Both the position numbers and the translations under genes were made by a program. This document shows, piece by piece, positions 5,503 to 34,175 of a DNA stretch of 34,175 nt (position 1 is its first letter; each line of letters begins with the position of its first letter). The stretch lies in NCBI GenBank assembly GCA_024277115.1, contig JAJRVW010000049.1, positions 1-34,175 of the forward strand, in the 5' to 3' direction. Below the pieces are notes generated by a model, which was given only the letters and a program-made list of their open reading frames with translations, was not told where the DNA came from and made no database searches. Source of the DNA: Calditrichota bacterium. GTDB lineage: Bacteria; Calditrichota; Calditrichia; Calditrichales; J004.

Positions 5503-5696
5503 CACAGAACTCGCAGAGTTTTTTTTAATACCTTTCTTACGTCTTGTTTTTCTCCATGATCTCACAGGGCTCTGCAGTCATTTTTTACTACTGAGACCAC
5601 AGAACTCGCAGAGTTTTTTTTAATACCTTTCTTTGTCTTGTTCTTCTCCGTGATCTTGTAGGCTCTGTAGTTTTTTTAATACCAAGACCACAGAAC
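5503..5696. repeat. Tandem repeat of about 91-95 bp, two copies plus a start
   Basis: Positions 5503-5538 and 5598-5633 are identical over 36 bases (beginning CACAGAACTCGCAGAG and followed by eight T and AATACCTTTCTT). Each unit then continues with a variant of CTCCRTGATCTNNNNGGGCTCTG, and a third unit begins at 5689 with CACAGAAC. The units are degenerate forms of the CACAGAG / CTCTGTG words often seen around GxxExxY genes. They occupy the gap between the binding-protein and GxxExxY genes. Confidence 0.7.
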
Positions 5697-5725
5697 ACAC
5701 TGAGAATTAAGATATTTGCATTGGT

Positions 5726-12558: not shown

Positions 12559-15500
12559 CTAATCATTAAAAACTGCACGGATTGCAGAAGAAAATTCATT
12601 CATAACTATCGGCTTTTCTATTACATCTTTTATGCCGTATTTTTCCAAATCAATCCCCAAAAGTTTATGCCCTAATCCTGTTGTAATTATCACTGGAAAC
12701 CCTGGCTTTAATTTTTGAATTTTCTCTGACAATTGAATGCCTGTAAAGTTAGGCATCGTTAGATCAGATATCAATAAATCATATTTCCCCAGGCATTCTT
12801 TAAAGACACCAAGAGCCTTTTTGCTGTTTTGAAATAAGTCTACAGAATAACCAAACTGCTCCAACATCTGCTTTACCATCGTCCCGACAACTTTGTCATC
12901 ATCAACCACCATAATGGATTCTTTGCCTTGCACAAGTTTATCAACAACAACTTTCTTACTCTCAGACGGCTCGGCCATAACCGGTAAAAATACCTGGAAA
13001 GTTGTCCCAATGCCAAGCTTGCTCTTTATCAGAATATCGCCACGGTGGCTTTGAATAATTCCATGCACTACCGAGAGGCCTAATCCCGTTCCTTTATCGA
13101 CTGATTTTGTTGTGAAGAAAGGCTCAAAAATACGTTCCACTGTTGCCTCGTCCATACCTTTGCCCGTATCTTGAACAGTTAAGCAAATATATTTTTCCTC
13201 TTTCAGGTTTTGCTGGAGTTTAACATCCAATTTATTCCACTCTACCTGTTTTACACCAACAGTTAAGGTGCCGCCATTTTTTTCCATAACCTGCCAGGCA
13301 TTTGTACATAAATTTACAATAACCTGATGTATCTGTGTGGTATCGGCCAAAATTTTTTCGCACCGGGGATCAATTTTTTGTACAATTTCAACAGTGGCGG
13401 GTATAGACGACCGTAATAGTTTTAGTGCTTCTTTTACAATTAATTGCAGGCTTAAGGGGATCCGTTCTTTCTCAATCTGTTTGCTAAATAATAACATTTG
13501 TTCTATCAGGTCTTTGGCGCGGTATGCGCCTTCCAAAACAATATTCAGGTTATGCCTTAGGGGATCAGATTCTTCTAACTCCAGAACAGCCATATCCGTG
13601 TAGCCCAAAATTGGCGTCAGGATATTATTAAAATCATGTGCAATGCCCCCTGCCAATGTTCCAATAGTTTCAAGTTTTTGGTTTCGCCTTACTAGTTTTT
13701 CTAAATTTATCTTCTCCGCCTCCGCCTGTTTTCTGAGTGTTATATCCTGAATCGTCCCCAGCATTCGGATTGGCCGACCTGTTGCATCAAACTCAAGTTG
13801 CCCCATGCCATGCACCCAACGCTCCTGTTTATCATTCAAGCGGGTTATCCTGTATTCCTTATTAAAAGGCTCATACATGGTTAAAACATTATGTGTGAAG
13901 TACCCTTGAATTTTTTCACGGTCATCCTCGTGAACTATTTGTAACCAGCCGGCAATATCTTTTTTAAATGATGGGCCAATGCCAAAAAGATCATCCAAAA
14001 AAATGGAATTTTCCCAATTGCCAGATTCAACATCTAAAACATACGAACCGATAAGCGCCACTTTTTGAGACTCTTTAAGGAAGTGTTCACTTTTTTTCAA
14101 CGCATTCTCAGCGTTTTTTCGTTCAGTAACATCTTCCATAACACAGAGGATACCATCTCGGCCATCGGGCAATTGAACCATTTTTTCATTCAGCTCAAGA
14201 TAACAAATAGTGCCATCTTTTTTTCGGTCACGCACAGAATGCTTTAATTGCTTGCCGTTTAAAAGCTGCTGTATATGTATTTCAATATCAACAGGATTTT
14301 CCGGACTACCTAAAATCCTTACATTTTCACCAATAAGTTCTTTACTTGTATATCCGACAGAGTGACAAAAAGCAGGGTTTACTTCTAAAATATTGCCCTC
14401 ACTGTCTTCTAATATTATTCCGCTTGGCGAAAGTTCAAATAATGTCCGGTAAAATTCTTTTTCTTTCTGTAAAGCATCTAGCACCTGCTTTCGTTCGGTA
14501 ACATCTTCCGTTACACAAAGTATCCCTTCGCTTCCATCGGGCAGTGTTAATTTTTTTTCATTTAACCCCATATAACAAATAGCACCGTCTTTTTTTATAC
14601 TTTTTTCATTATGAGATTTTTGTTTTCCATTTAACAGTTCTTCAATATTATTATTTACCTCAGCAAGCTCATCAGGATGGGTAAACATACTTACGTGCTT
14701 ACCTATAAGCTCGTCCCGTGAATAGCCTAATGAATTAGAAAACGCCGGATTCACATCCAAAATATAGCCTTTACTGTCTTCCATCAGAATACCACTTGGT
14801 GATAGTTCAAAAAGGGTACGATAAAATATTTCCCTTTCTTTTAATGTATTTTCAATATTTTTTTGCTCTGTAATATCCAAGACTGTGAATGTCACCCCTT
14901 TTTGTTGATCATCCGGATCGATAGGTGTAGATGCAAGAAGTATATCGATTACTAAACCATCTTTTTTCTTCCAACGTGTTTCAACTTTCCCACTTCCCAT
15001 TATAGTTATTTGGCGATATTTTTCTTCCCCAACAAAATTATATTCTTGTTCAGATGGATAAAGAATCCGTGCATTTTTCCCGATCAGCTCATCTTTAGTA
15101 TAGCCTGTAAGTTCACAAATATATGGATTAACATCCATAATCACTCGGTCTTTTACTACTCCAATTCCCATGGGAGAAACACGAAAAATACTTTTTAACC
15201 TATTTTTATTTTCACGTAAAGTTTTTTCGATATTCTTGTGTTCAGTGATATTCCTGACAACTACCGTGATACCTGCAAACTCCCCATTTGCATTTTTATA
15301 CAACGATACTTTCGCATCAAACCATTTTATGACACCTTCAAGCTCCATAGAATAATCAAATTGTTGAACCTTGTTTGTTCTTTTTATTGCCTGTATAGCA
15401 GAACTTAATTTATTGGCAATGTCAGGAGGAAGGACCGTTTTGTATGACTTTCCAATAAAAGCTTCCGGTGGCACAAAGAGTTGTTCTGTATCTTCAGTCT

Positions 15501-15699
15501 GATAATAATTGAGGAAAATACCTTGATCATCGATTACAAAAATCAAATCATCTATCGAAGAAATAATTGTGTGAACCGTCTCACCACTTTCCAATAAACC
15601 TTTTTCCCTATCTTCCGTCCCGTTTTTATTTTGTACTTTTTTACGCAGTTCTTCCAACTCGGATATTAATTGGGCTTTGGTCTTATTTCTATCATTCAT
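12559..15699 (-). CDS. Hybrid sensor histidine kinase with five PAS domains and a receiver
   Basis: A predicted cytosolic protein of 1046 residues without membrane segments. After an N-terminal coil (KTKAQLISELEELRKK) come about five PAS/PAC repeats (roughly 45-155, 165-285, 290-410, 412-535 and 545-660), each ending in a DITE/DVTERK-type segment. The third and fourth are very similar to each other (LFELSPSGI, EDS.G.IL.VNPAF), a sign of internal duplication. Then follow the dimerisation helix with the phospho-histidine (LAGGIAHDFNNILTPILGY), the ATPase with N box (NLCTNAWQVME), G1 (DTGKGMD) and G2 (GTGLGLS), and a receiver with LLISDLTMPN as the acceptor site. It is paralogous to the kinase just upstream (7-base gap). 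The signal is not known; PAS domains suggest redox, light or ligand sensing. Confidence 0.9.
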   Translation of the reverse strand: MNDRNKTKAQLISELEELRKKVQNKNGTEDREKGLLESGETVHTIISSIDDLIFVIDDQGIFLNYYQTEDTEQLFVPPEAFIGKSYKTVLPPDIANKLSSAIQAIKRTNKVQQFDYSMELEGVIKWFDAKVSLYKNANGEFAGITVVVRNITEHKNIEKTLRENKNRLKSIFRVSPMGIGVVKDRVIMDVNPYICELTGYTKDELIGKNARILYPSEQEYNFVGEEKYRQITIMGSGKVETRWKKKDGLVIDILLASTPIDPDDQQKGVTFTVLDITEQKNIENTLKEREIFYRTLFELSPSGILMEDSKGYILDVNPAFSNSLGYSRDELIGKHVSMFTHPDELAEVNNNIEELLNGKQKSHNEKSIKKDGAICYMGLNEKKLTLPDGSEGILCVTEDVTERKQVLDALQKEKEFYRTLFELSPSGIILEDSEGNILEVNPAFCHSVGYTSKELIGENVRILGSPENPVDIEIHIQQLLNGKQLKHSVRDRKKDGTICYLELNEKMVQLPDGRDGILCVMEDVTERKNAENALKKSEHFLKESQKVALIGSYVLDVESGNWENSIFLDDLFGIGPSFKKDIAGWLQIVHEDDREKIQGYFTHNVLTMYEPFNKEYRITRLNDKQERWVHGMGQLEFDATGRPIRMLGTIQDITLRKQAEAEKINLEKLVRRNQKLETIGTLAGGIAHDFNNILTPILGYTDMAVLELEESDPLRHNLNIVLEGAYRAKDLIEQMLLFSKQIEKERIPLSLQLIVKEALKLLRSSIPATVEIVQKIDPRCEKILADTTQIHQVIVNLCTNAWQVMEKNGGTLTVGVKQVEWNKLDVKLQQNLKEEKYICLTVQDTGKGMDEATVERIFEPFFTTKSVDKGTGLGLSVVHGIIQSHRGDILIKSKLGIGTTFQVFLPVMAEPSESKKVVVDKLVQGKESIMVVDDDKVVGTMVKQMLEQFGYSVDLFQNSKKALGVFKECLGKYDLLISDLTMPNFTGIQLSEKIQKLKPGFPVIITTGLGHKLLGIDLEKYGIKDVIEKPIVMNEFSSAIRAVFND

Positions 15700-15706
15700 A
15701 ATTTTT

Positions 15707-18607
15707 TTATTTTATTTTTGATTTATGTACTGCCATCTCTAAAACCTCACGAATGGCATAAGCTAATTCTTTCATTATAACCGGCTTCTCAATGATTTTT
15801 TTTATGCCAAAACTTTCCTGATCGATGCCTAATAATTTTTTACCATAGCCTGTCATCATAATGATTGGAATATCCGACTGGATTTTGTGTACACTTTTTG
15901 ATAAATCGATTCCTGTCAAATCGGGCATGGTTAAATCAGAAAGTAATAAATCGTATCTATGCGGGTATTTTTTAAAATTAGCCAGGGCATCAGAACTATT
16001 ATTGAACAGACTGACCGTATATCCAAATTTTTCCAGCATTTGTTTTAACATATTGCCAACAAGATTATCATCATCCACAACCAAAATCGATTCATCACCG
16101 CCCGAAATATTAAGCTGAAGGTCCTCATGCGGTGCCGCGCCGGAAGTATCGACAGGAAAATAAACATGAAAAACGGAACCCTTGCCGGGCTCGCTGTAAA
16201 CAAGAATTTCGCCTTGATGGCTCTGGACGATTCCATACACAACGGCCAGTCCCAAACCAGTGCCTTTATCAACTGCTTTTGTTGTAAAAAAGGGCTCAAA
16301 AATACGGTCGATCGTATTTGTATCCATTCCTTCACCTGTATCCCTAACCGTAAGACGCACATAATTAGCCACATTCAGGTTAGGATGCATCTTGGCCATA
16401 TTAGCATCAACTTCTTGCTGTATCAGCTCAATACTAAGCACACCACCATTCTTCTCCATTGCCTGCCAGGCATTGGTACATAAATTAATAATAACCTGAT
16501 GTACCTGTGTGGCATCAGCCAATATTTTGGGGCAAGATGAATCTATTTGTTGTACTATTTCTACCGTACTGGGGATGGAAGACCGGAGTAATTGTAATGC
16601 TTCCTTCAGGATGATATGCATATAAAGCGGAATGCGTTCCCGCTCTACCTGCTTACTAAATAAAAGAATTTGCTCGACTAAATCTTTGGCACGGTGCGCG
16701 CCTTCCACAATGCGGGAAATATTTCTTTTTAACGGATCACCTTCAGCCAACTCAAGCAGGGTCATATCTGCGTAGCCCATAATTGGCGTAAGAATGTTAT
16801 TAAAATCATGGGCAATGCCTCCGGCAAGGGTACCGATAGTTTCCAATTTCTGGCTACGCCTCAACTGTGTTTCCAGTTTGTTTTTTTCTTCCTCGGCCTC
16901 TTTGCGTTTTGTTATATCACGCCAAACAACATGCAGAAAACTCTTTTCGCCAAGAGGAATGGCCGTTAATAAAACTTCTACCGGAAAAACTTCACCGTCC
17001 GCCCTTTTATGGTCCCACTCAAAACGATGGCTACCATTCTCAAAAGCCAGAGCCATCATTTTATTGGCTTTTTCTAACGAGTTTTGGCCATCAGGTTGCT
17101 GTTCGGGTGAGAGTTCTGAAGGATGGGTTTCCAGAAAATCTTTTTTATTCTTATAGCCCAACATTTTTATGGTGGCCGGATTACAGTCTACAAATTTCCC
17201 TTCTTCGATTATCAAGATGGCATCGGCCGTATGTTCAAAAAGAATCTTATATTTATTTTCACTTTCTCGTAAAGCTTTTTCTGTGGCCTTACGCCCTGTA
17301 ATATCGATTGTAGATATATAAACCCTTTTCATTGTTTTTTCATGACCCGGGAGAACCGCCCAATTTAGTTCAATATATCTAGATTCTCCTTTCAAAGTTT
17401 TTACGGTCCCCTCAAAAATGCTATGCGAGTTTCCTTCAGCAATTGCAATTAGTTCTTCTTTAAACGGAATAAACGATTCTTTTGTAAATATCTTTTCCAA
17501 ACCATGCAATAATGTATCTTTGGAGCTAGCCTCGTGCAAAGCCAAAACGGCTTTATTTACTTCAATAATTTTTACGAGGTTTGCATATTCAATAACCGCA
17601 TCGGGGTTTTCATCAAAATATTTTCTAAAATCGGTAACGCCACTTTCTCTCAATAAATCTAATTTTTCTTTTACGAAAGAAAAATCCTCTTCCCAAAGTG
17701 GAATGGGCGATTCCTCAAAGAGGGCACGGTATTGTTGCTCACTTTCCTGCAGTTTCTTTTTTGCAGCCACACGCTCGGTGATATCCCGAACGGAACCAAG
17801 AACACATTTTTTACCCCGAATTGAAATTATTTTCCCTGTAACTTCCGCAACAAACTCCGTTCTATCCTTCCGAATAAGAACTACCGTGACAGGTACGCCT
17901 TCTTCCACAGTTTTGGTCCGTTTAAAAGTAGAAGTATCGGCCTGGTCTGCGGTTACATCAAAAACAGTCATTTTCAACAGTTCTTCTTCACTCCAGCCTA
18001 CCATCTGGCAGAAAGCAGGATTAACAAAAATATAGTTTCCTTTTAAATCCGCAACACTAATCCCTTCGCTCGATTGGTTTGTAAACGCATTGAATTGCTC
18101 CTCTCTATCCTGTAATTTTTCTTCGGCTTGCTTCCTTTTGGAAATATCCTCGACAAGGGCCAAACCGGCAATAATTTTGTCATCATTATCACGGATCCCT
18201 TTAAACAAAATCCTTACATACGTTTTCTTTTTAGCAGTAACCGAACTATATAACCCCTCAAAATAAGCATGGCCCTTTTTTAAAGATTGGATTCCGCAGC
18301 GAATAATTTTTTTATCTTTTATCTGACTAAGGATATTTAGACCAATAAGTTTTTCCCGCGATGATCCGATTATCTCAACAAATTTCTTATTGCATTCGGT
18401 AATATGTCCCTCTAAATCATAATTAAATATCCCGATGGGTGATTCATCAACGATCGTTTTATATTTTTCCTTACTCTCCCATAATGCTTTTTCAGTTTGG
18501 GAGGCGGCTTGTTTCTGACCATCGCTTTTTTGAACAGAGGAAAGTTGTAATCGGAGTTGCTTTAATTCGGCAATAAGCTGGGCTTTGGATTTATTAGTAT
18601 CCATCAT
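15707..18607 (-). CDS. Hybrid sensor histidine kinase with four PAS domains and a receiver
   Basis: A predicted cytosolic protein of 966 residues. An N-terminal coil (KSKAQLIAELKQLRLQ) matches that of the next gene. Four PAS/PAC units follow (roughly 48-160, 168-285, 290-440 and 448-565; the third carries an insertion of about 45 residues). The kinase core has LAGGIAHDFNNILTPIMGY with the phospho-histidine, N box NLCTNAWQAME, DTGEGMD and GTGLGLA. The C-terminal receiver has LLLSDLTMPD and the conserved lysine in EKPVIM. It is the first gene of a group with its paralogue and a receiver. The start ATG-ATG at 18607 follows AAGGAAATAACCGG. A 7-base inverted repeat lies 30-55 bases upstream. Ligand unknown. 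Confidence 0.9.
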   Translation of the reverse strand: MMDTNKSKAQLIAELKQLRLQLSSVQKSDGQKQAASQTEKALWESKEKYKTIVDESPIGIFNYDLEGHITECNKKFVEIIGSSREKLIGLNILSQIKDKKIIRCGIQSLKKGHAYFEGLYSSVTAKKKTYVRILFKGIRDNDDKIIAGLALVEDISKRKQAEEKLQDREEQFNAFTNQSSEGISVADLKGNYIFVNPAFCQMVGWSEEELLKMTVFDVTADQADTSTFKRTKTVEEGVPVTVVLIRKDRTEFVAEVTGKIISIRGKKCVLGSVRDITERVAAKKKLQESEQQYRALFEESPIPLWEEDFSFVKEKLDLLRESGVTDFRKYFDENPDAVIEYANLVKIIEVNKAVLALHEASSKDTLLHGLEKIFTKESFIPFKEELIAIAEGNSHSIFEGTVKTLKGESRYIELNWAVLPGHEKTMKRVYISTIDITGRKATEKALRESENKYKILFEHTADAILIIEEGKFVDCNPATIKMLGYKNKKDFLETHPSELSPEQQPDGQNSLEKANKMMALAFENGSHRFEWDHKRADGEVFPVEVLLTAIPLGEKSFLHVVWRDITKRKEAEEEKNKLETQLRRSQKLETIGTLAGGIAHDFNNILTPIMGYADMTLLELAEGDPLKRNISRIVEGAHRAKDLVEQILLFSKQVERERIPLYMHIILKEALQLLRSSIPSTVEIVQQIDSSCPKILADATQVHQVIINLCTNAWQAMEKNGGVLSIELIQQEVDANMAKMHPNLNVANYVRLTVRDTGEGMDTNTIDRIFEPFFTTKAVDKGTGLGLAVVYGIVQSHQGEILVYSEPGKGSVFHVYFPVDTSGAAPHEDLQLNISGGDESILVVDDDNLVGNMLKQMLEKFGYTVSLFNNSSDALANFKKYPHRYDLLLSDLTMPDLTGIDLSKSVHKIQSDIPIIMMTGYGKKLLGIDQESFGIKKIIEKPVIMKELAYAIREVLEMAVHKSKIK

Positions 18608-25333: not shown

Positions 25334-25771
25334 CTATACAATTAATTTTTCGAGCTGCCGATGATATTCGCGATTTTCTATTTCCAGTCGTTTTTTCTCG
25401 TCATTTATTTTCTTTACCTGCAATGCCCTTCCTACGGCTGTTTGGATATCTCTGGCAACAACAGGCTTGGTGATATAATCAATCGCTTTTTCCCTCACAG
25501 CTTCTGCTGCCGATTCCAGGGTGGGATAACCCGTCATCATAATAACCGGTGTCTCAGGCGCGAGAATCTGAATTTTCCTAAGTAAATCCAAACCACTCAG
25601 GCCAGGCATAAGAATATCACTTATTATTACATCAAAACTTGAATGCTTAAGACTATTGACAGCTTCAACAAAATTTGCCGCTGTAAATACAATATGTTTT
25701 TCTTTTTCAAGAATATATGACAATAACTTGCGAATATTTTTTTCATCGTCAACAACTAAGATTTTGGCCAT
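25334..25771 (-). CDS. Receiver domain with coiled-coil tail, split from the kinase by in-frame TAG
   Basis: The protein of 145 residues is a receiver (1-120) with D8-D9, D52 (DVIISDILMP), T80 and K102, followed by a coiled-coil linker (NDEKKRLEIENREYHRQLEK). The linker ends LEKLIV-TAG and the next codons read QTGELRILASAV, the start of the kinase's PAS domain. Receiver-coil-PAS-kinase proteins usually read LEKLVEERTxELR here, so the TAG sits in place of one acidic or Gln codon. It is the first gene of the receiver/kinase/regulator operon. Confidence 0.88.
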   Translation of the reverse strand: MAKILVVDDEKNIRKLLSYILEKEKHIVFTAANFVEAVNSLKHSSFDVIISDILMPGLSGLDLLRKIQILAPETPVIMMTGYPTLESAAEAVREKAIDYITKPVVARDIQTAVGRALQVKKINDEKKRLEIENREYHRQLEKLIV

Positions 25772-25946
25772 GGAATTTTACATTAGTTTAAAGATAAAAT
25801 TTTTTGGGGACATCTTTTATATCGGGCATAACTTTATTGGGATAAGTTAAGGATGGAAATAGTTTAGAGGATTTTTATCTTTACGGTACCAATTAGTCAA
25901 AGTGGCGCCTTTACAATCTTGTTTTAAAAAATTAGAAATTAACAGA

Positions 25947-26057
25947 GCAATAGCATTTTTTTGTTCTCAGCGTGTAAAAATACAGGCCGCTTGCCAAATT
26001 GGATGCATCGATACTTAGCCTGTAATTTCCCGGTAAGTGATATTTATTTAAAACGGT
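25947..26057 (-). pseudogene. Orphan fragment of a T9SS sorting domain
   Basis: The minus strand just past the stop of the 647-residue secreted protein encodes TVLNKYHLPGNYRLSIDA and SNLASGLYFYTLRTK, matching the tail of the 817-residue paralogue (TVLNKYHLPGNYRLNIDA, ANLASGLYFYTLRTK) almost exactly. It has no start, lacks the EKTKTK segment, and a missing A in the A7 run breaks the KKMLLL ending. It lies directly after another sorting domain, as if the tail of this gene had been exchanged and part of the earlier one left behind. Confidence 0.75.
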
Positions 26058-26059
26058 AA

Positions 26060-28003
26060 TTATCTTAACAATAACATTTTTCTTGTCTTTTCAAAATCTT
26101 TGCCGGCTTTCAATTTATAATAATACACGCCCGAGGCTAAATTACTGGCATCAAAAGTGACTTTATACTTCCCTGCCGGCTGGGTTTCATTGACCAATGT
26201 TTTTACTTCCCGGCCCAGCACATCGTACACAATTAATTTTACTTGTACCGGCCCCACCGCAGCAGCGGGGTTCGCCCCTGCCCCGATTTCATAATTAATA
26301 GTTGTACCTGGGTTAAAGGGATTAGGGTAGTTTTGACCGAGAATAAATGATTTAGGGATTAGAACGTATGGAAGTGACTCAATTTTATTTTGGAGTTCAT
26401 TTTTATAAAAAGCATCCACACGTGATGCTTTTTCCTTAAGCTTTGTTACACTGTCCAAATGGTCCTGGCCACGGGCAGCAATAATGGCAATAATTATCTC
26501 TTGTGTATCGCCCGGCGCAAATGTAAAAGGGCCAGAATTAATATACATTGTTCGATCACCGGGGCGTGGGCCACCTACCCATCCATCCCCCTCGTACCAG
26601 CCGGTCCCTTTAACAGGATCGCCACTTAATAAAAATTTTGTAACTGATCCACTAACAGGATCAATTAGGGTATCTCCATTATAGGTTGAAAGACATCGCA
26701 AATTATTATATGTATGATATGCCCCTTCTTTTTGCCTAAAATAAGGATACGTAACCCCATCTTTCCAATATTTAACAGTTACTGCAAATGAAGAGAAGGA
26801 CAGGGATTTATAAGCCTCTTTTATTTTTCCATTCATCACCGCAAAATCGTTTTCCCGCCCTCTGGATATGGCACCATGCAGAAGTTGATAGCCAATTGCT
26901 TGTGAAGGTTCACTATCATCAGAATTATATCCGAAACCCAGGTTTAAACTTGTATCACATCCCGCATAATCATTATGCGGTTTCCCCAAATCAAAATCGC
27001 TCCAATAACTTAGATACATGTCTTCAACTGTATTTACACCTTTGTTAATGATTAAATACTTCTTAAAGATAACATCTTTTAAAAAGTCAGTAGAATTAAA
27101 GGCGAAAATGGTAGATTGTATTTCCAATCCAATCGGATCAGATCCAAAGAGCGCCCCAGGCGTTTCCGCTTGTAAATCATTCATCACAAACCAAATGGTT
27201 TCGTCTCCAAGGTGTTTAGGCCGATCAATATAGTTAGAATAAAAACCATCACCATTACTATCTTCCCAGGGAGCCCCCAAATCAGCAGGCCAATGTTCAA
27301 AATCATACACTAATCGATTTTTAAAGTCTGCATCTTCTATACTTTGTATTTCACTTCTAATTTTCCAAATATGTGTTGAAGCAATACCATTGGAGCTTGG
27401 CGAATAAGGCCCTTTGTGTAACCCGGAACGCCATTGGCTGCCATTTGCAATAATACTATTATTCATTTTACCTGCCCACAAAAGACCATCAGAAAAAACA
27501 GTTCCCAAAATCCTACCATTATCTGAAAGCCATTGAAATCCTTCGGTATAATCTGCCAACGGATTGTTTGAACCAATACCTGTATTTGAGAAAAACATCT
27601 TTATGGAATTAATATTTATAAATTCAACCCCGCCATCAATAATAACCAGAGGTATGTCTGTCTGGAAATAATCCTCTGGGTCATAAATGTTGGAAATTCT
27701 GAGTAAGAGTTCACCCAAGAAATATTGCGGAACTTGCCACATTATACTGTTTTGGTCTATTGACCAGAACTTATACTTAATATTTTTCCAGGACGAACCC
27801 GAATCAATAGAATACTCAATTTTTACGGAATCCTCTCCGGGCCCATCATAAAAAATATCAAACTCCTGGAGTGCCTTCAACGTATCTCCTCCAGCCGGCA
27901 CTAATATCTTAAGGTTTTGAGAAAAAGATGGCATAGGCAAATACAAAAGAAATAGACATAGCAAGATAAATTTAGTGGAGGCAGGCCATTGAAATTTGAT
28001 CAT
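26060..28003 (-). CDS. Secreted T9SS-sorted protein, Ig/KNH-like domain plus LGAPW core
   Basis: A protein of 647 residues. Signal peptide (FILLCLFLLYLPMPSFS-Q), then a beta domain (about 29-125; VKIEYSIDSGSSWKNI) of the Kre9/KNH or Ig-like type, then a core of about 400 residues shared with two genes upstream: HWPADLGAPWEDSNGDGFYS, DRPKHLGDETIWFVMND, GCDTSLNLGFGYN, GDTQEIIIAIIAARGQDHL. The DSNGDGFYS loop resembles a calcium-binding loop. The tail (about 565-647; [39 protein letters not shown]) is a type A sorting domain for T9SS. The start follows AGGAG by seven bases and overlaps the lipoprotein stop (ATGA). Function unknown; an exported surface or extracellular protein. Confidence 0.82.
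   Translation of the reverse strand: MIKFQWPASTKFILLCLFLLYLPMPSFSQNLKILVPAGGDTLKALQEFDIFYDGPGEDSVKIEYSIDSGSSWKNIKYKFWSIDQNSIMWQVPQYFLGELLLRISNIYDPEDYFQTDIPLVIIDGGVEFININSIKMFFSNTGIGSNNPLADYTEGFQWLSDNGRILGTVFSDGLLWAGKMNNSIIANGSQWRSGLHKGPYSPSSNGIASTHIWKIRSEIQSIEDADFKNRLVYDFEHWPADLGAPWEDSNGDGFYSNYIDRPKHLGDETIWFVMNDLQAETPGALFGSDPIGLEIQSTIFAFNSTDFLKDVIFKKYLIINKGVNTVEDMYLSYWSDFDLGKPHNDYAGCDTSLNLGFGYNSDDSEPSQAIGYQLLHGAISRGRENDFAVMNGKIKEAYKSLSFSSFAVTVKYWKDGVTYPYFRQKEGAYHTYNNLRCLSTYNGDTLIDPVSGSVTKFLLSGDPVKGTGWYEGDGWVGGPRPGDRTMYINSGPFTFAPGDTQEIIIAIIAARGQDHLDSVTKLKEKASRVDAFYKNELQNKIESLPYVLIPKSFILGQNYPNPFNPGTTINYEIGAGANPAAAVGPVQVKLIVYDVLGREVKTLVNETQPAGKYKVTFDASNLASGVYYYKLKAGKDFEKTRKMLLLR
26249..26285. 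repeat. GC-rich palindromic insertion inside the sorting domain
   Basis: A GC-rich block in an AT-rich gene contains nested inverted pieces (CCGC-AGCA-GCGG and GGGG-TTCG-CCCC). It encodes GAGANPAAAVGPVQ, present in this tail but absent from the other two, which have other sequences at the same place. It looks like a repeat unit that inserted in frame. Confidence 0.5.
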
Positions 28004-29296: not shown

Positions 29297-31750
29297 TTAT
29301 CTCAGCAGCAGCATTTTTTTTGTTTTAGTCTTTTCTTTTGTTCTCAGCGTGTAAAAATACAAGCCGCTTGCCAAATTGGCTGCATCGATATTTAGCCTGT
29401 AATTTCCCGGGAGATGGTATTTGTTTAAAACCGTTTTTACTCTTTGGCCAAGATTATTATAAAGTTCGATCACAATTTTTTGGGCTTTGGGAACACTGTA
29501 CTTTATAAGTGTGGAACCGTTGAACGGATTGGGAAAGTTTTGCGACAATTCAATTTTATTGGGCGCGGCATAGCTGTTAAACACATTGGGCGCCAACAAA
29601 CTGTCTGTATAAAATTTTTGAACCCGGCGGGCTTTCTCTTTTAGTTTTGTGACGCTGTTTAAGTTATTTTCTCCACGGGCAACAATTATGGCAAAAACCA
29701 CTTCTTGCGTATCGCCAGGCGCCATGGTTAGCGGCCCTGTATTTTGGAAATAGGACCTTTCCCCAATACTGTATGTATCGTTCTCAATCCAACCGGATGC
29801 ACTTTCCGGATCACCCGCGAGAGGAAATTTTGTTACATCTCCTGTAAACGAATCGTAATAGGGCGAACCGTTAGTATAAAAACCATGTTGCAGATTAAAT
29901 ATATCCTGTTGATTTCGAGACTCCGCTTCATAAAAGGGACCGGAATCTTCATCCTGTGGCGCAAAGGAATACATCCCTAAGTTTTTATATCCTCTTTTCC
30001 AGCGAAAATTAAAAAGGGCGCTATCACCAGGAGATTCAACTACCGATCCTTGTACCAACAAGTTACCAACAGCGTGTGGCGCCTTATCGCCAAGCCGGTA
30101 ATTTTTTTCATAAAATTCATAACCAAATGCCAGTCCTAAAAGCGTATCACAGCCAACAACATTATCTGCTTCCCCCAATCCTATCCAGATAAAAGAGTAA
30201 TTACTAAAAACAACATCCTCAATTATATCCGGGCTTTTATTTATAATTGTAAATTTTTTAAAAACGACATCGTCAAGATAATTACCATTGTTAAATCCAA
30301 ATACGGAAGTGGTCACCTCAACACCCAGAGGGAGTGTATTAAAGGCGTATACTGAGCGCAATGTGTCTAAATCATTTGCTATCGAAAAAGTAGTTTCATC
30401 ACCCAACCTATAAGGTTTATCTGCCCCTTGCGTATACACACCATCATTCGTATTGTCAATCCAGGGCGCGCCAAGTTGGATCGGCCAGTTTGCATAATTT
30501 TCTTCATAAACCGCACGTAAAGAATCGTCTTCTATACTGTCAGGATTCTTCCTGACCTTCCATAATTTGTATGCCTCTCTTGTAGGATCATCGGCAACAA
30601 AGCCGGGAAGTATTTGACCGGGATAGAGGGAGTTATAAACATACTTTCCTGCAACCCGGATTTCATTATTTACGAGCCCACTGATAATAAAAGACTCTTG
30701 ATCTATTGCAGAAAGATTCTCTTCCCCATCAAACCAAAACAAACTACTATAACCCCTCTCGGCAGAAACAACATTTGCGAGGTTATCAATTGACATACTT
30801 ATATTATTTATGTTGAAATTAAAAAGCTCGATCTCTGATTGTTCACAACAATCAACAAGACGATAAAATTTTAAAAATGAAGAACTATAAATCTGGCCGT
30901 TTAAATCGGACGCAACTACTTGATTATAGGATTTGGGCAATCCTTGGTTAACAGGCTCCCAGGTTAAATCATTTTTAGTTGATCGAAATATACCTTTTCT
31001 TACAGAACTAATATAAATTTGCCCATTGTAAATTGTGAGACTGTGTGAGTCAAGATTTAGATCAAAGACCTGTTTCCAGGTCAATCCCCCATCACTGCTT
31101 TTATAAACGCCATAAAACCGGTCTGCCCCGCCCATGTAGATGGTACCGTCTTCGGCCTGCCCAAATGATTCAATATCCCCACAATTAAAAGACTCAATAA
31201 AGTCCCAATTTCTTCCTTTATCCACCGAGCGGTATAATCCACAATTTGTCCCGGCAAAGATATTCCCGTCCCGATCTACAAACAGGGACCATACAATATG
31301 AGTAAATTCTCTGATATTTGTAATCGGGCGCTGCCAATCCACGCCATTATTTGTTGAGTAAAATATTCTGTCGTCTGTTCCAATAAATACCGTACTGTCA
31401 TCATAAACGGCAATACATTCAACCCATGGAAATTCACCCCGTTTTTTCCAGCTTGATCCGTTATCCGGAGAATAGTAAAACGCATCTGATGTCCCCGCGA
31501 ACAATTCGTTATTAAATCCTAAAGCAAAACTTTCTATAATTTGTTTGGTTAATCCTAAATGAACCCAACTTTCCCCCCTGTCTTTTGAGAGATAAATACC
31601 CTTGCCTGTGCCGATATAAAAATTATTTTCTTCATCTATATCGATAGTATTAATGCCAAAATTTTGGAAATCATAAATCTCTTTCCAAACTTGTTGGGAA
31701 TTACCTAAGGCGATAAATAAAAATATCGTTAACGCAATTATTGTTTTCAT
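29297..31750 (-). CDS. Secreted T9SS-sorted protein, BNR-propeller plus LGAPW core
   Basis: A protein of 817 residues with a signal peptide (IIALTIFLFIALGNS-Q). The first 310 residues form a propeller with six Asp-box words (SKDRGESW, SPDNGSSW, STNNGVDW, SVDKGRNW, SSDGGLTW, STKNDLTW), as in sialidase/Ycf48-type propellers; catalytic sialidase residues were not looked for beyond that. From about residue 390 it has the shared core: NWPIQLGAPWIDNTNDGVY, DKPYRLGDETTFSIANDLD, GCDTLLGLAFGYE, PGDTQEVVFAIIVARGE. The tail (ELSQNFPNPFNGSTLIKYS ... NLASGLYFYTL ... KMLLLR) is a T9SS sorting domain of a different subtype from its neighbours. It lies 23 bases after the 651-type gene and 10 before the lipoprotein gene. 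Confidence 0.82.
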   Translation of the reverse strand: MKTIIALTIFLFIALGNSQQVWKEIYDFQNFGINTIDIDEENNFYIGTGKGIYLSKDRGESWVHLGLTKQIIESFALGFNNELFAGTSDAFYYSPDNGSSWKKRGEFPWVECIAVYDDSTVFIGTDDRIFYSTNNGVDWQRPITNIREFTHIVWSLFVDRDGNIFAGTNCGLYRSVDKGRNWDFIESFNCGDIESFGQAEDGTIYMGGADRFYGVYKSSDGGLTWKQVFDLNLDSHSLTIYNGQIYISSVRKGIFRSTKNDLTWEPVNQGLPKSYNQVVASDLNGQIYSSSFLKFYRLVDCCEQSEIELFNFNINNISMSIDNLANVVSAERGYSSLFWFDGEENLSAIDQESFIISGLVNNEIRVAGKYVYNSLYPGQILPGFVADDPTREAYKLWKVRKNPDSIEDDSLRAVYEENYANWPIQLGAPWIDNTNDGVYTQGADKPYRLGDETTFSIANDLDTLRSVYAFNTLPLGVEVTTSVFGFNNGNYLDDVVFKKFTIINKSPDIIEDVVFSNYSFIWIGLGEADNVVGCDTLLGLAFGYEFYEKNYRLGDKAPHAVGNLLVQGSVVESPGDSALFNFRWKRGYKNLGMYSFAPQDEDSGPFYEAESRNQQDIFNLQHGFYTNGSPYYDSFTGDVTKFPLAGDPESASGWIENDTYSIGERSYFQNTGPLTMAPGDTQEVVFAIIVARGENNLNSVTKLKEKARRVQKFYTDSLLAPNVFNSYAAPNKIELSQNFPNPFNGSTLIKYSVPKAQKIVIELYNNLGQRVKTVLNKYHLPGNYRLNIDAANLASGLYFYTLRTKEKTKTKKMLLLR

Positions 31751-31773: not shown

Positions 31774-33702
31774 CTATCGCAATAACAACATTTTTCGTGT
31801 TGTCTCATATTTATCTCCAGCTTTTAGCTTATAATAATAAACGCCACTCGCAAAACCTGTTGCATCAAAAGTGACTTTATACTTCCCCGCCGGCTGGGTT
31901 TTATTGACCAAAGTTTTTACTTCCCGGCCTAGCACATCGTACACAACAAGCTTTACTTCCTTCATAATTCGTAATTCATAATTTATAATTGTACTTGGGT
32001 TAAAAGGATTGGGGTAGTTCTGGGAAAGCGAAAATCTATTTGGGCTCAAGACAGGTTCTTCATCTGTAATGGCCGTGGGTAATTTACCGGTGTAATAAAA
32101 CTCTCTTACAGCGGCGGCTTTACGTTTCAACTCGGTGACGCTATCCAAATAATTTTCACCACGGGCTATTAGCACTGCATACACCACTTCTTGAGAATCG
32201 CCAGGGGAGAAGTCAAAGGGGCCACTGCTGATAACCAGTCTGCGATCACCGGAGTTTGGGCCTCCCGGCCATCCGTCTCCTTCATACCAGCCAATACCTG
32301 CCACGGGATCACCAGGGACTACAAACTGAGTTTCTAACCCTGTATTTGGGTCAATAAACGGCGCCCCGTCCCAAAAACGACCGCGCATATAGTTATAAAA
32401 TTCATAAGACCCTTCAATAACACCCTGTTGGGGATCACTATATACCGGACTGGCACCTAAAAATAAAACCGAGCTAGTCATCTTTTCGTTTTTAAAGCCC
32501 CAAAACCAACGGTCATAGGAGTAGGCACTATCTTGTTGCGTGGAAGGGACGACCGGGCCTTGTAAAAGCAAATAACCAACAGCGGGAACAGGGGCTTCAT
32601 AGCCCCCCCAGTCATCATCCCCATCATTATAACAATAGCTTAAAGAGAGCAAAGTGTCACAGCCGATAAAATCATTCCCGGGATGACCCAAGTCCGGGTC
32701 GGACCAATAACTAAAATACATACTGTCCACATGGTTTTTACCTTTGTTTAGGACTTTGTATTTTTTAAAAATGACATCCTCTAAAACTTCCTGGTTATAG
32801 GCATATACGGATAGCTGAATTTCCAGGCCAATCGGATCAGCGCCATAGGTAAAACGGGATTTTATGGTATCCATATCGTTCATAACCATCCAAAATAACT
32901 CATCACCACTTATTTTCGGATTATCAACTTCCGGATTATACACCCCATCACCATCAACATCATCCCACGGCGCGCCTAGATGCATCGGCCAATTATTCCA
33001 ATCATATTCCAGCCGGTCTTTTTCAGGGCTATCAGGAAAGGTTTGCCAGTTTGGATTTACCCGCCAAATACCAAACTGGTCGCCGGCCAGGTCTGCTGGT
33101 TTTCCATCGGTTAAAATATTTCCCGGTCGGATTCCATGCCGATATGCGCTGCCATTTACCCGCACAGAATCGCCAATAATACCGCCCCACAAAAAACCAT
33201 CTTCATATATTGCGCTTTTAGTTGCACTCTTTCCGCCGGGCCAATAAAAACCACTGCCATCCGTTTCAGGATCATGTGCCCCATCACCATTATTGGCAAA
33301 CCACATTAAGACTTCATTTGTAGCAATTGTTTCATATTGAACCGGTGTAATCGAAAAACTTCCCGGGCTAATAACCTGTTCATTGGAATCCGAAATAGCG
33401 GTAATCCGGATTTTACACTCTATGGCTATCGTATCAGGAACATCCCAAAACTTCCAGGAAGTCGAACCTTGCCCTCCACCGCCCAGAGTAGTGGCCTCAA
33501 CCCAATCTATCCCATTATTTAAAGAATACTCGATGTATGTATCTGATCCAAAGGGAGAATCGTATTTAATCGCATAGCGTGGTTGATTGGGTACATTTTC
33601 GCCTGCAAATGGCCGCAGAATTGTTATTGACTGCGAATTTGCAATTAAAGCTAAATTAAGTAAGATAAATATGAGTATGGTTCGAATAAAAATTTTACCC
33701 AT
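31774..33702 (-). CDS. Secreted T9SS-sorted protein, Ig/KNH-like domain plus LGAPW core
   Basis: A protein of about 642 residues starting at ATG 33702, seven bases after GGAGG; an upstream ATG at 33729 would add nine residues without a ribosome site. It has a signal peptide (ILIFILLNLALIANS-Q), a beta domain (DTYIEYSLNNGIDWVEA) and the shared core: NWPMHLGAPWDDVDGDGVYN, DNPKISGDELFWMVMNDMD, GCDTLLSLSYCYN, AVGYLLLQGPVV, GDSQEVVYAVLIARGE. Two DxDGDGxY-like loops suggest calcium binding. The sorting tail ends [18 protein letters not shown] ... [12 protein letters not shown] ... KMLLLR. It is first in a four-gene group, and a similar gene's end lies upstream. Function unknown. Confidence 0.82.
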   Translation of the reverse strand: MGKIFIRTILIFILLNLALIANSQSITILRPFAGENVPNQPRYAIKYDSPFGSDTYIEYSLNNGIDWVEATTLGGGGQGSTSWKFWDVPDTIAIECKIRITAISDSNEQVISPGSFSITPVQYETIATNEVLMWFANNGDGAHDPETDGSGFYWPGGKSATKSAIYEDGFLWGGIIGDSVRVNGSAYRHGIRPGNILTDGKPADLAGDQFGIWRVNPNWQTFPDSPEKDRLEYDWNNWPMHLGAPWDDVDGDGVYNPEVDNPKISGDELFWMVMNDMDTIKSRFTYGADPIGLEIQLSVYAYNQEVLEDVIFKKYKVLNKGKNHVDSMYFSYWSDPDLGHPGNDFIGCDTLLSLSYCYNDGDDDWGGYEAPVPAVGYLLLQGPVVPSTQQDSAYSYDRWFWGFKNEKMTSSVLFLGASPVYSDPQQGVIEGSYEFYNYMRGRFWDGAPFIDPNTGLETQFVVPGDPVAGIGWYEGDGWPGGPNSGDRRLVISSGPFDFSPGDSQEVVYAVLIARGENYLDSVTELKRKAAAVREFYYTGKLPTAITDEEPVLSPNRFSLSQNYPNPFNPSTIINYELRIMKEVKLVVYDVLGREVKTLVNKTQPAGKYKVTFDATGFASGVYYYKLKAGDKYETTRKMLLLR

Positions 33703-33860
33703 TTTGGTTCCTCCAGATTTAATTAACATTCCAGGTATTAATATCTTGAAGGCGCAATAAAGAAAACTAACGAAACAATATTTTCTGGATGTGCTCGAAA
33801 TTTTTACCCGTCTTAAGTTACGGCAATAAACACCGCCCCGACAAACCGGGATGGCCCTAT
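33703..33860. promoter_or_regulatory. Gap upstream of the secreted-protein operon
   Basis: These 158 bases lie between the end of the paralogue on the right and the first gene of the operon. A small hairpin (CCCG at 33837-33840, CGGG at 33847-33850) near the paralogue's stop lacks a T run. It probably holds the operon promoter, but no -35/-10 pair stands out. Confidence 0.35.
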
Positions 33861-34175
33861 TTATCTTAACAACAACATTTTCCGTGTCGTCTCAAATTTA
33901 TTTCCAGCTTTTAGCTTATAGTAATAAACGCCACTCGAAAAACCGGTTGCATCAAATGTTACTTTGTATTTCCCCGCCGGCTGGGTTTTATTGACCAAAG
34001 TTTTTACTTCCCGGCCCAGCACATCGTACACAACAGCTTTACCTCATTCATAATTCGTAATTCATAATTTATTATTGTACTTGGGTTAAACGGGTTGGGG
34101 TAGTTTTGGGAAAGTGAAAATTTATTTGGGGTTAGGACAGGTTCGTCATCTTTAAAGGCCGTCGGTAATTTACCG
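33861..34175 (-). pseudogene. 3' end of a fourth secreted paralogue, sorting tail frameshifted
   Basis: The minus strand entering from the right encodes [20 protein letters not shown] then [20 protein letters not shown], clearly the paralogue of the 651-type tail. About position 34036 one base is missing compared with that gene (ACAACAGC against ACAACAAGC), so the frame runs on as [10 protein letters not shown] to a TAA at 34004, while the proper ending ([12 protein letters not shown] ... TTRKMLLLR, stop 33861) continues in another frame. The product would lose most of its sorting domain. The 5' part is outside the window. Confidence 0.8.

Follow-up and report, generated by a model that had tools for sequence, protein, structure and literature searches.

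A broken second T9SS tail end behind an intact exported-protein gene of a Calditrichota bacterium, probably left by a lost neighbouring gene

The window, i.e., the whole stretch of 34,175 nucleotides that was analysed (contig JAJRVW010000049.1 of assembly GCA_024277115.1, Calditrichota bacterium), carries on its minus strand a run of exported-protein genes in the order A', A, B, C, and D, with the stub of a further T9SS tail following immediately on the stop codon of D (Table 1). The tails of D and B score 33.8 and 41.8 bits against PF18962 (cut-off 27), the tail of A likewise exceeds this cut-off, and TIGR04183 is above its cut-off for the D and B tails, with the D match at 26075-26329. In addition, the genome encodes SprA (TIGR04189) in one 2084-codon frame at 791.7 bits against a cut-off of 200. 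The tails of D, A, and B are genuine T9SS tails, since they score above the PF18962 cut-off and the SprA translocon is encoded in the genome. The body of D is 36% identical to that of B, compared with 43-45% for other relatives.

Table 1. Positions of the array genes, the stubs, and the repeated tail-end unit.
Feature	Position	Strand	Details and evidence
B-type T9SS tail stub (second half of domain)	25939..26059	-	DNA identity, CTD profile match, deletion seen directly
Gene D, 647 aa, intact	26060..28003	-	ORF; complete A-type T9SS tail ~26060-26329
Gene C, 428 aa		-	Pfam: no match
Gene B, 817 aa	29297..31750	-	ORF; tail 29297-29536
Gene A, 651 aa, relative of D, B directly behind	31774..33729	-	ORF; common array-type tail
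Second stub, behind A'	33767..33860	-	25-nt hairpin-like spacer 33836-33860 and decayed tail end 33767-33835; sequence, alignment
Gene A', cut by contig edge	33861-34175	-	
Repeated tail-end/hairpin unit	L221 6233-6546; L321 and L322 (G010 C43); L063 8519-8700 and 5963-6130; window 33767-33940		

Several further features accompany these genes. The tail of A' is one base short in comparison with A (AAGCTGTTG versus AAGCTTGTTG), which gives a frameshift and may reflect an error of the consensus close to the end of the contig. Palindrome-like short insertions such as GGGGCGAATAGCTATTCGCCCC are present at one linker within several T9SS tails (window 26240-26290, L063 3080-3110, and L234), where they are in frame in intact genes. 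Elsewhere in the window, neighbouring genes of 1046 and 966 aa (12559-18607) share long stretches of 72-73% DNA identity and form a tandem duplicate, and the intergenic region at 5503-5704 contains direct repeats, comprising two perfect copies of 36 nt and a related 33-nt pair.

The stub shares 88-90% DNA identity with the tail of gene B and has no other close relative. Its ungapped alignment (25956-26062) with the B tail (29333-29439) spans 107 nt at 89% identity, and BLAST gives 88% with an E value of 2.6e-34. Its reading frame (TVLNKYHLPGNYRLSIDASNLASGLYFYTLRTKK) opens 2 nt past the stop codon of D and is thus +2 relative to D, i.e., out of frame with it; in this frame a local CTD profile matches the stub with an E value of 2e-7. 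The preliminary description, which placed a close copy of the tail of the 817-residue gene immediately after the tail of the 647-residue one, agrees with these results. It had also held that a common dispersed repeat would overturn its reading. No further copies were found across the 4.97-Mb genome, in which the sequence occupies two places only, the stub and the B tail, and a dispersed repeat is ruled out by this single copy besides the B tail.

Near the end of the stub (near 25956-25962), 19 nt that are present in B (ACAAAA...AAAATG) are missing, and because of this deletion the end of the stub, MLLLR and a stop, is out of register. This end, ATGCTATTGCTCTGTTAA, spans 25939-25956, so the stub reaches 25939, slightly beyond the 25947 given previously. 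At the junction, D and the stub have no more than a few bases in common (D TTAAGATAATTACCG, B CAAAGAGTAAAAACGG), and the DNA 3' of the stub is unlike the DNA 3' of B. No hairpin is found at this junction (-0.4 kcal/mol), and a hairpin element as the cause of the D stub is rejected, as the hairpin belongs to other stubs. While the TIGR04183/PF18962 domain is recognised above cut-off in the tails of D, A, and B, the stub consists of the second half only, lies in frame +2, and has a frameshifted end, and is therefore no complete in-frame sorting domain. As a frameshifted half domain with no in-frame gene ahead, it is not expected to function in sorting. It is homologous to part of an intact gene, has a broken frame, and has no start; taken alone, the stub is an ordinary gene remnant.

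The changes between the stub and B bear on the age of the event. In a small sample of 33 codons, 8 codons have changed and the amino acid is altered in two of these eight, which corresponds to dS 0.33 and dN 0.04. For a simulated copy of B that was dead from birth, so few replacements are obtained at P 0.007-0.019 across a range of constraint on B. The divergence of stub and B appears to have arisen mostly while both were working tails, and the few replacements, improbable for a dead copy, suggest that the stub was part of a working gene until recently. The time since its death would be at most about 0.08-0.1 substitutions per site, according to our own Poisson bound, which takes 2-3 replacements over about 76 sites. 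The complete tail of D has a dS of at least 0.9 from the array tails compared, and none of the tails outside the array is nearer to it than 65% identity. No close donor of the D tail is present in the assembly (95.6% complete, 255 contigs), the nearest tail being at dS 0.9, and for this reason the D tail looks older than the death of the stub. Given the recent death of the stub, a recent swap would need a donor outside the assembly.

A comparable arrangement is present in a related genome, G010, where behind one gene (L322 and L362) the repeat of a tail end precedes a distinct second tail end of ~54 codons, as in D and its stub. The G010 stub, which lies behind a 1159-aa gene, corresponds to the end of a T9SS gene termed CHGT, which G007, G015, and G020 (the last of the same genus) have intact. 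In G020, the next gene after CHGT is orthologous (79% aa) to the one that follows the G010 stub, and in G007 and G013 the 1159-aa gene has orthologues that carry their own tail of this kind at the end. By these comparisons, the G010 stub is a scrap of a lost gene and not a tail that the preceding gene once had, because the CHGT orthologues are intact, the downstream neighbour is conserved, and the orthologues of the front gene keep their tail type. The gene ahead of the CHGT gene in G020 differs from the 1159-aa gene, so that a rearrangement took place in G010, which need not have been a simple deletion between genes that are neighbours at present. Shortly behind the G010 stub (L322 916-1000) lies a dispersed repeat of ~80 nt with many copies at 81-91% identity in that genome.

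By analogy, the stub behind D is probably the remnant of a lost B-like gene. This is the best account because of the G010 case, the timing, and the gene order, in which A is followed by B, and D, a relative of A, is followed by a B-type stub. A gene with a B-type tail would formerly have been located directly behind D, and a deletion or similar rearrangement would have removed it except for its last ~40 codons. The joining would have taken place at a few bases that the stop-codon region of D (AAGATAA) has in common with the RVK codons (AAGAGTAA) of the other tail. D would have kept its own tail and stop codon, and the 19-nt deletion would have hit the stub afterwards. The lost gene was presumably B-like throughout and the event presumably a deletion; the G010 stub is the one analogue from which gene loss at D is suggested. 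Some points speak against this account: no trace of the lost gene was found besides its tail, the material compared contains no orthologue of the D locus, and the kinase gene downstream of the stub has no clear orthologue in 12 relatives. Among named relatives, the nearest to D has 39% identity. A response-regulator gene is located downstream of the stub at 25334-25771.

The sharing of tails within the array is extensive. Outside the array, the aligned tails of the genome have a median pairwise DNA identity of 49% and a 99.9th percentile of 70%, whereas in the array (contigs C240, C164, and C50) the tails except that of B are mostly 70-93% identical. The array passengers comprise three groups with no BLAST similarity between groups. 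The clearest case is C164:8610, whose passenger is nearest to a C50 gene (58% aa) and unrelated to the passenger of A', while the last 150 nt of its tail are 93% identical to A'. The pattern supports an exchange of array T9SS tails, or their homogenisation by gene conversion, among unrelated passengers. To this extent, the earlier proposal that T9SS tails can be swapped between surface proteins holds for the array. The ends of the three contigs are one tail sequence (window 34036-34175, L063 1-140, and L064 11453-11592), and the assembly broke at these ends because the tails of two related genes are identical. Moreover, in a gene of 658 aa an in-frame TAA stands right before an otherwise complete T9SS tail (L063 6359-6361, minus strand), which would sever the tail from the protein.

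Second tail ends follow 4 of the 144 complete tails of the genome, namely those of D, A', C164:8610, and C164:6059; 2-3 of these four are weak profile matches that were accepted on sequence alignment. Provided that C164 and C240 are joined at their overlapping ends, all four belong to one array, and with so few cases, all in one array, double tails as a genome-wide habit are rejected. Among 177 tails in other loci, a second tail was found in three at E < 0.001 (best shuffle 0.7). The 25-nt spacer has only three occurrences in the genome, each behind a tail (A', C164:8610, and C164:6059). The stubs of C164:8610 and C164:6059 are collinear with the tail ends of the neighbours 11060 and 2888, respectively, and continue into the same downstream DNA over alignments of 329 and 313 columns. 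This collinearity indicates that both stubs sit at native gene ends, which could be those of either the front gene, after a swap, or a lost neighbour.

These observations bear on the original proposal for D itself, according to which D once ended in a B-type tail and recombination brought an A-type tail with its stop codon, leaving the old end behind. The 70-93% identity of most array tails on unrelated passengers, the C164:8610 passenger of one family with a tail matching A', and the two stubs at native gene ends all speak for such a swap. However, the D tail is without a close donor despite the recent death of the stub, the body of D is not a sister of B, and the testable analogue in G010 is a lost gene. 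The general part of the proposal, tail sharing, is thus retained; its specific part, that the stub is D's own former tail, is possible but doubtful.

The relatives also contain copied tail ends. In G007 (L221 and L364), a tandem repeat comprises the final 24 tail codons, the stop codon, and the hairpin GCCATCCCGTTTTCGGGGTGGC, and in G010 the same unit is present behind two genes. Across at least three genomes of the order, the tail end (from codons G-V-Y), the stop codon, and a hairpin GCCATCCCG..CGGGG are repeated behind complete T9SS tails with the same junction. When folding was compared with shuffles, only the G007 hairpin was clearly better (z -3.6), and decayed or shorter copies were not. 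The hairpin as a tail-specific element is rejected in general, as GCCATCCCG...CGGG is also an ordinary intergenic palindrome in several relatives. The GTGGCGT(G/T)TAT codons of the tails are partly shared by the right arm of the hairpin. It is conceivable, if rather speculative, that the T9SS tails of this Calditrichia order are exchangeable cassettes, in which the tail end, the stop codon, and a terminator-like hairpin (GCCATCCCG-TTTT-CGGGGTGGC) are copied as one unit, either into other cargo genes or behind them, and joined via the GTGGCGT(G/T)TAT codons (S-G-V-Y). If so, unrelated surface proteins would trade export tags and stubs would be left as scars. The repeat of tail end and hairpin is the less expected part of the findings. 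No published work on leftover T9SS tails or on this repeated unit was found in the literature covered, which lies mostly outside subscription journals.

Tandem-copied tail ends in relatives are also in keeping with a partial copy, in which the end of the B tail was copied behind D, e.g., at the edge of a duplicated segment, and was never functional; B is only 3 kb away and the sole close match. This origin is improbable, as the pattern of changes does not suit a copy dead from birth and the DNA behind the stub is unlike that behind B. An assembly error joining two repeated tails is very unlikely: even though shared tails do break the assembly, the stub is 8 kb away from the end of the contig and has its own substitutions and deletion, there is no second stub copy available for misjoining, and the same kind of stub is present in independent genomes.

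On the preferred reading, loss of a B-like gene behind D, the stub adds a further case to a type of event already described, the loss of a neighbouring T9SS cargo gene. In Porphyromonas gingivalis, hagA and kgp are adjacent T9SS cargo genes with common C-terminal domains, one of which is removed by recombination, and the space between the two genes contains remnants of each in strain HG66 (PMC9328147). The likeness consists in loss among neighbouring T9SS cargo genes with a remnant left. In contrast, homologous recombination of highly similar genes gave in-frame derivatives in hagA-kgp, whereas the stub behind D has another tail type, its junction involves a few bases, and the gene in front is intact. 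As described in the excerpted text of another source, the KLIKK peptidases of Tannerella forsythia have one C-terminal domain type on different secreted peptidases of one genome (PMC11285876), similar to the tails that are common to unrelated passengers of this array. That excerpt mentions no leftover second tails; in contrast, the array tails are on neighbouring genes at 70-93% DNA identity.

T9SS stubs can be read as scars of lost exported-protein genes, and they show that the sorting domain, present in about 150 genes of this genome, is a site where such genes break and recombine. The stub behind D records breakage within shared export tags and is no proof that D changed its own tag. Moreover, the 70-93% identical tails on unrelated passengers within the array would make tail exchange directly testable in related strains.
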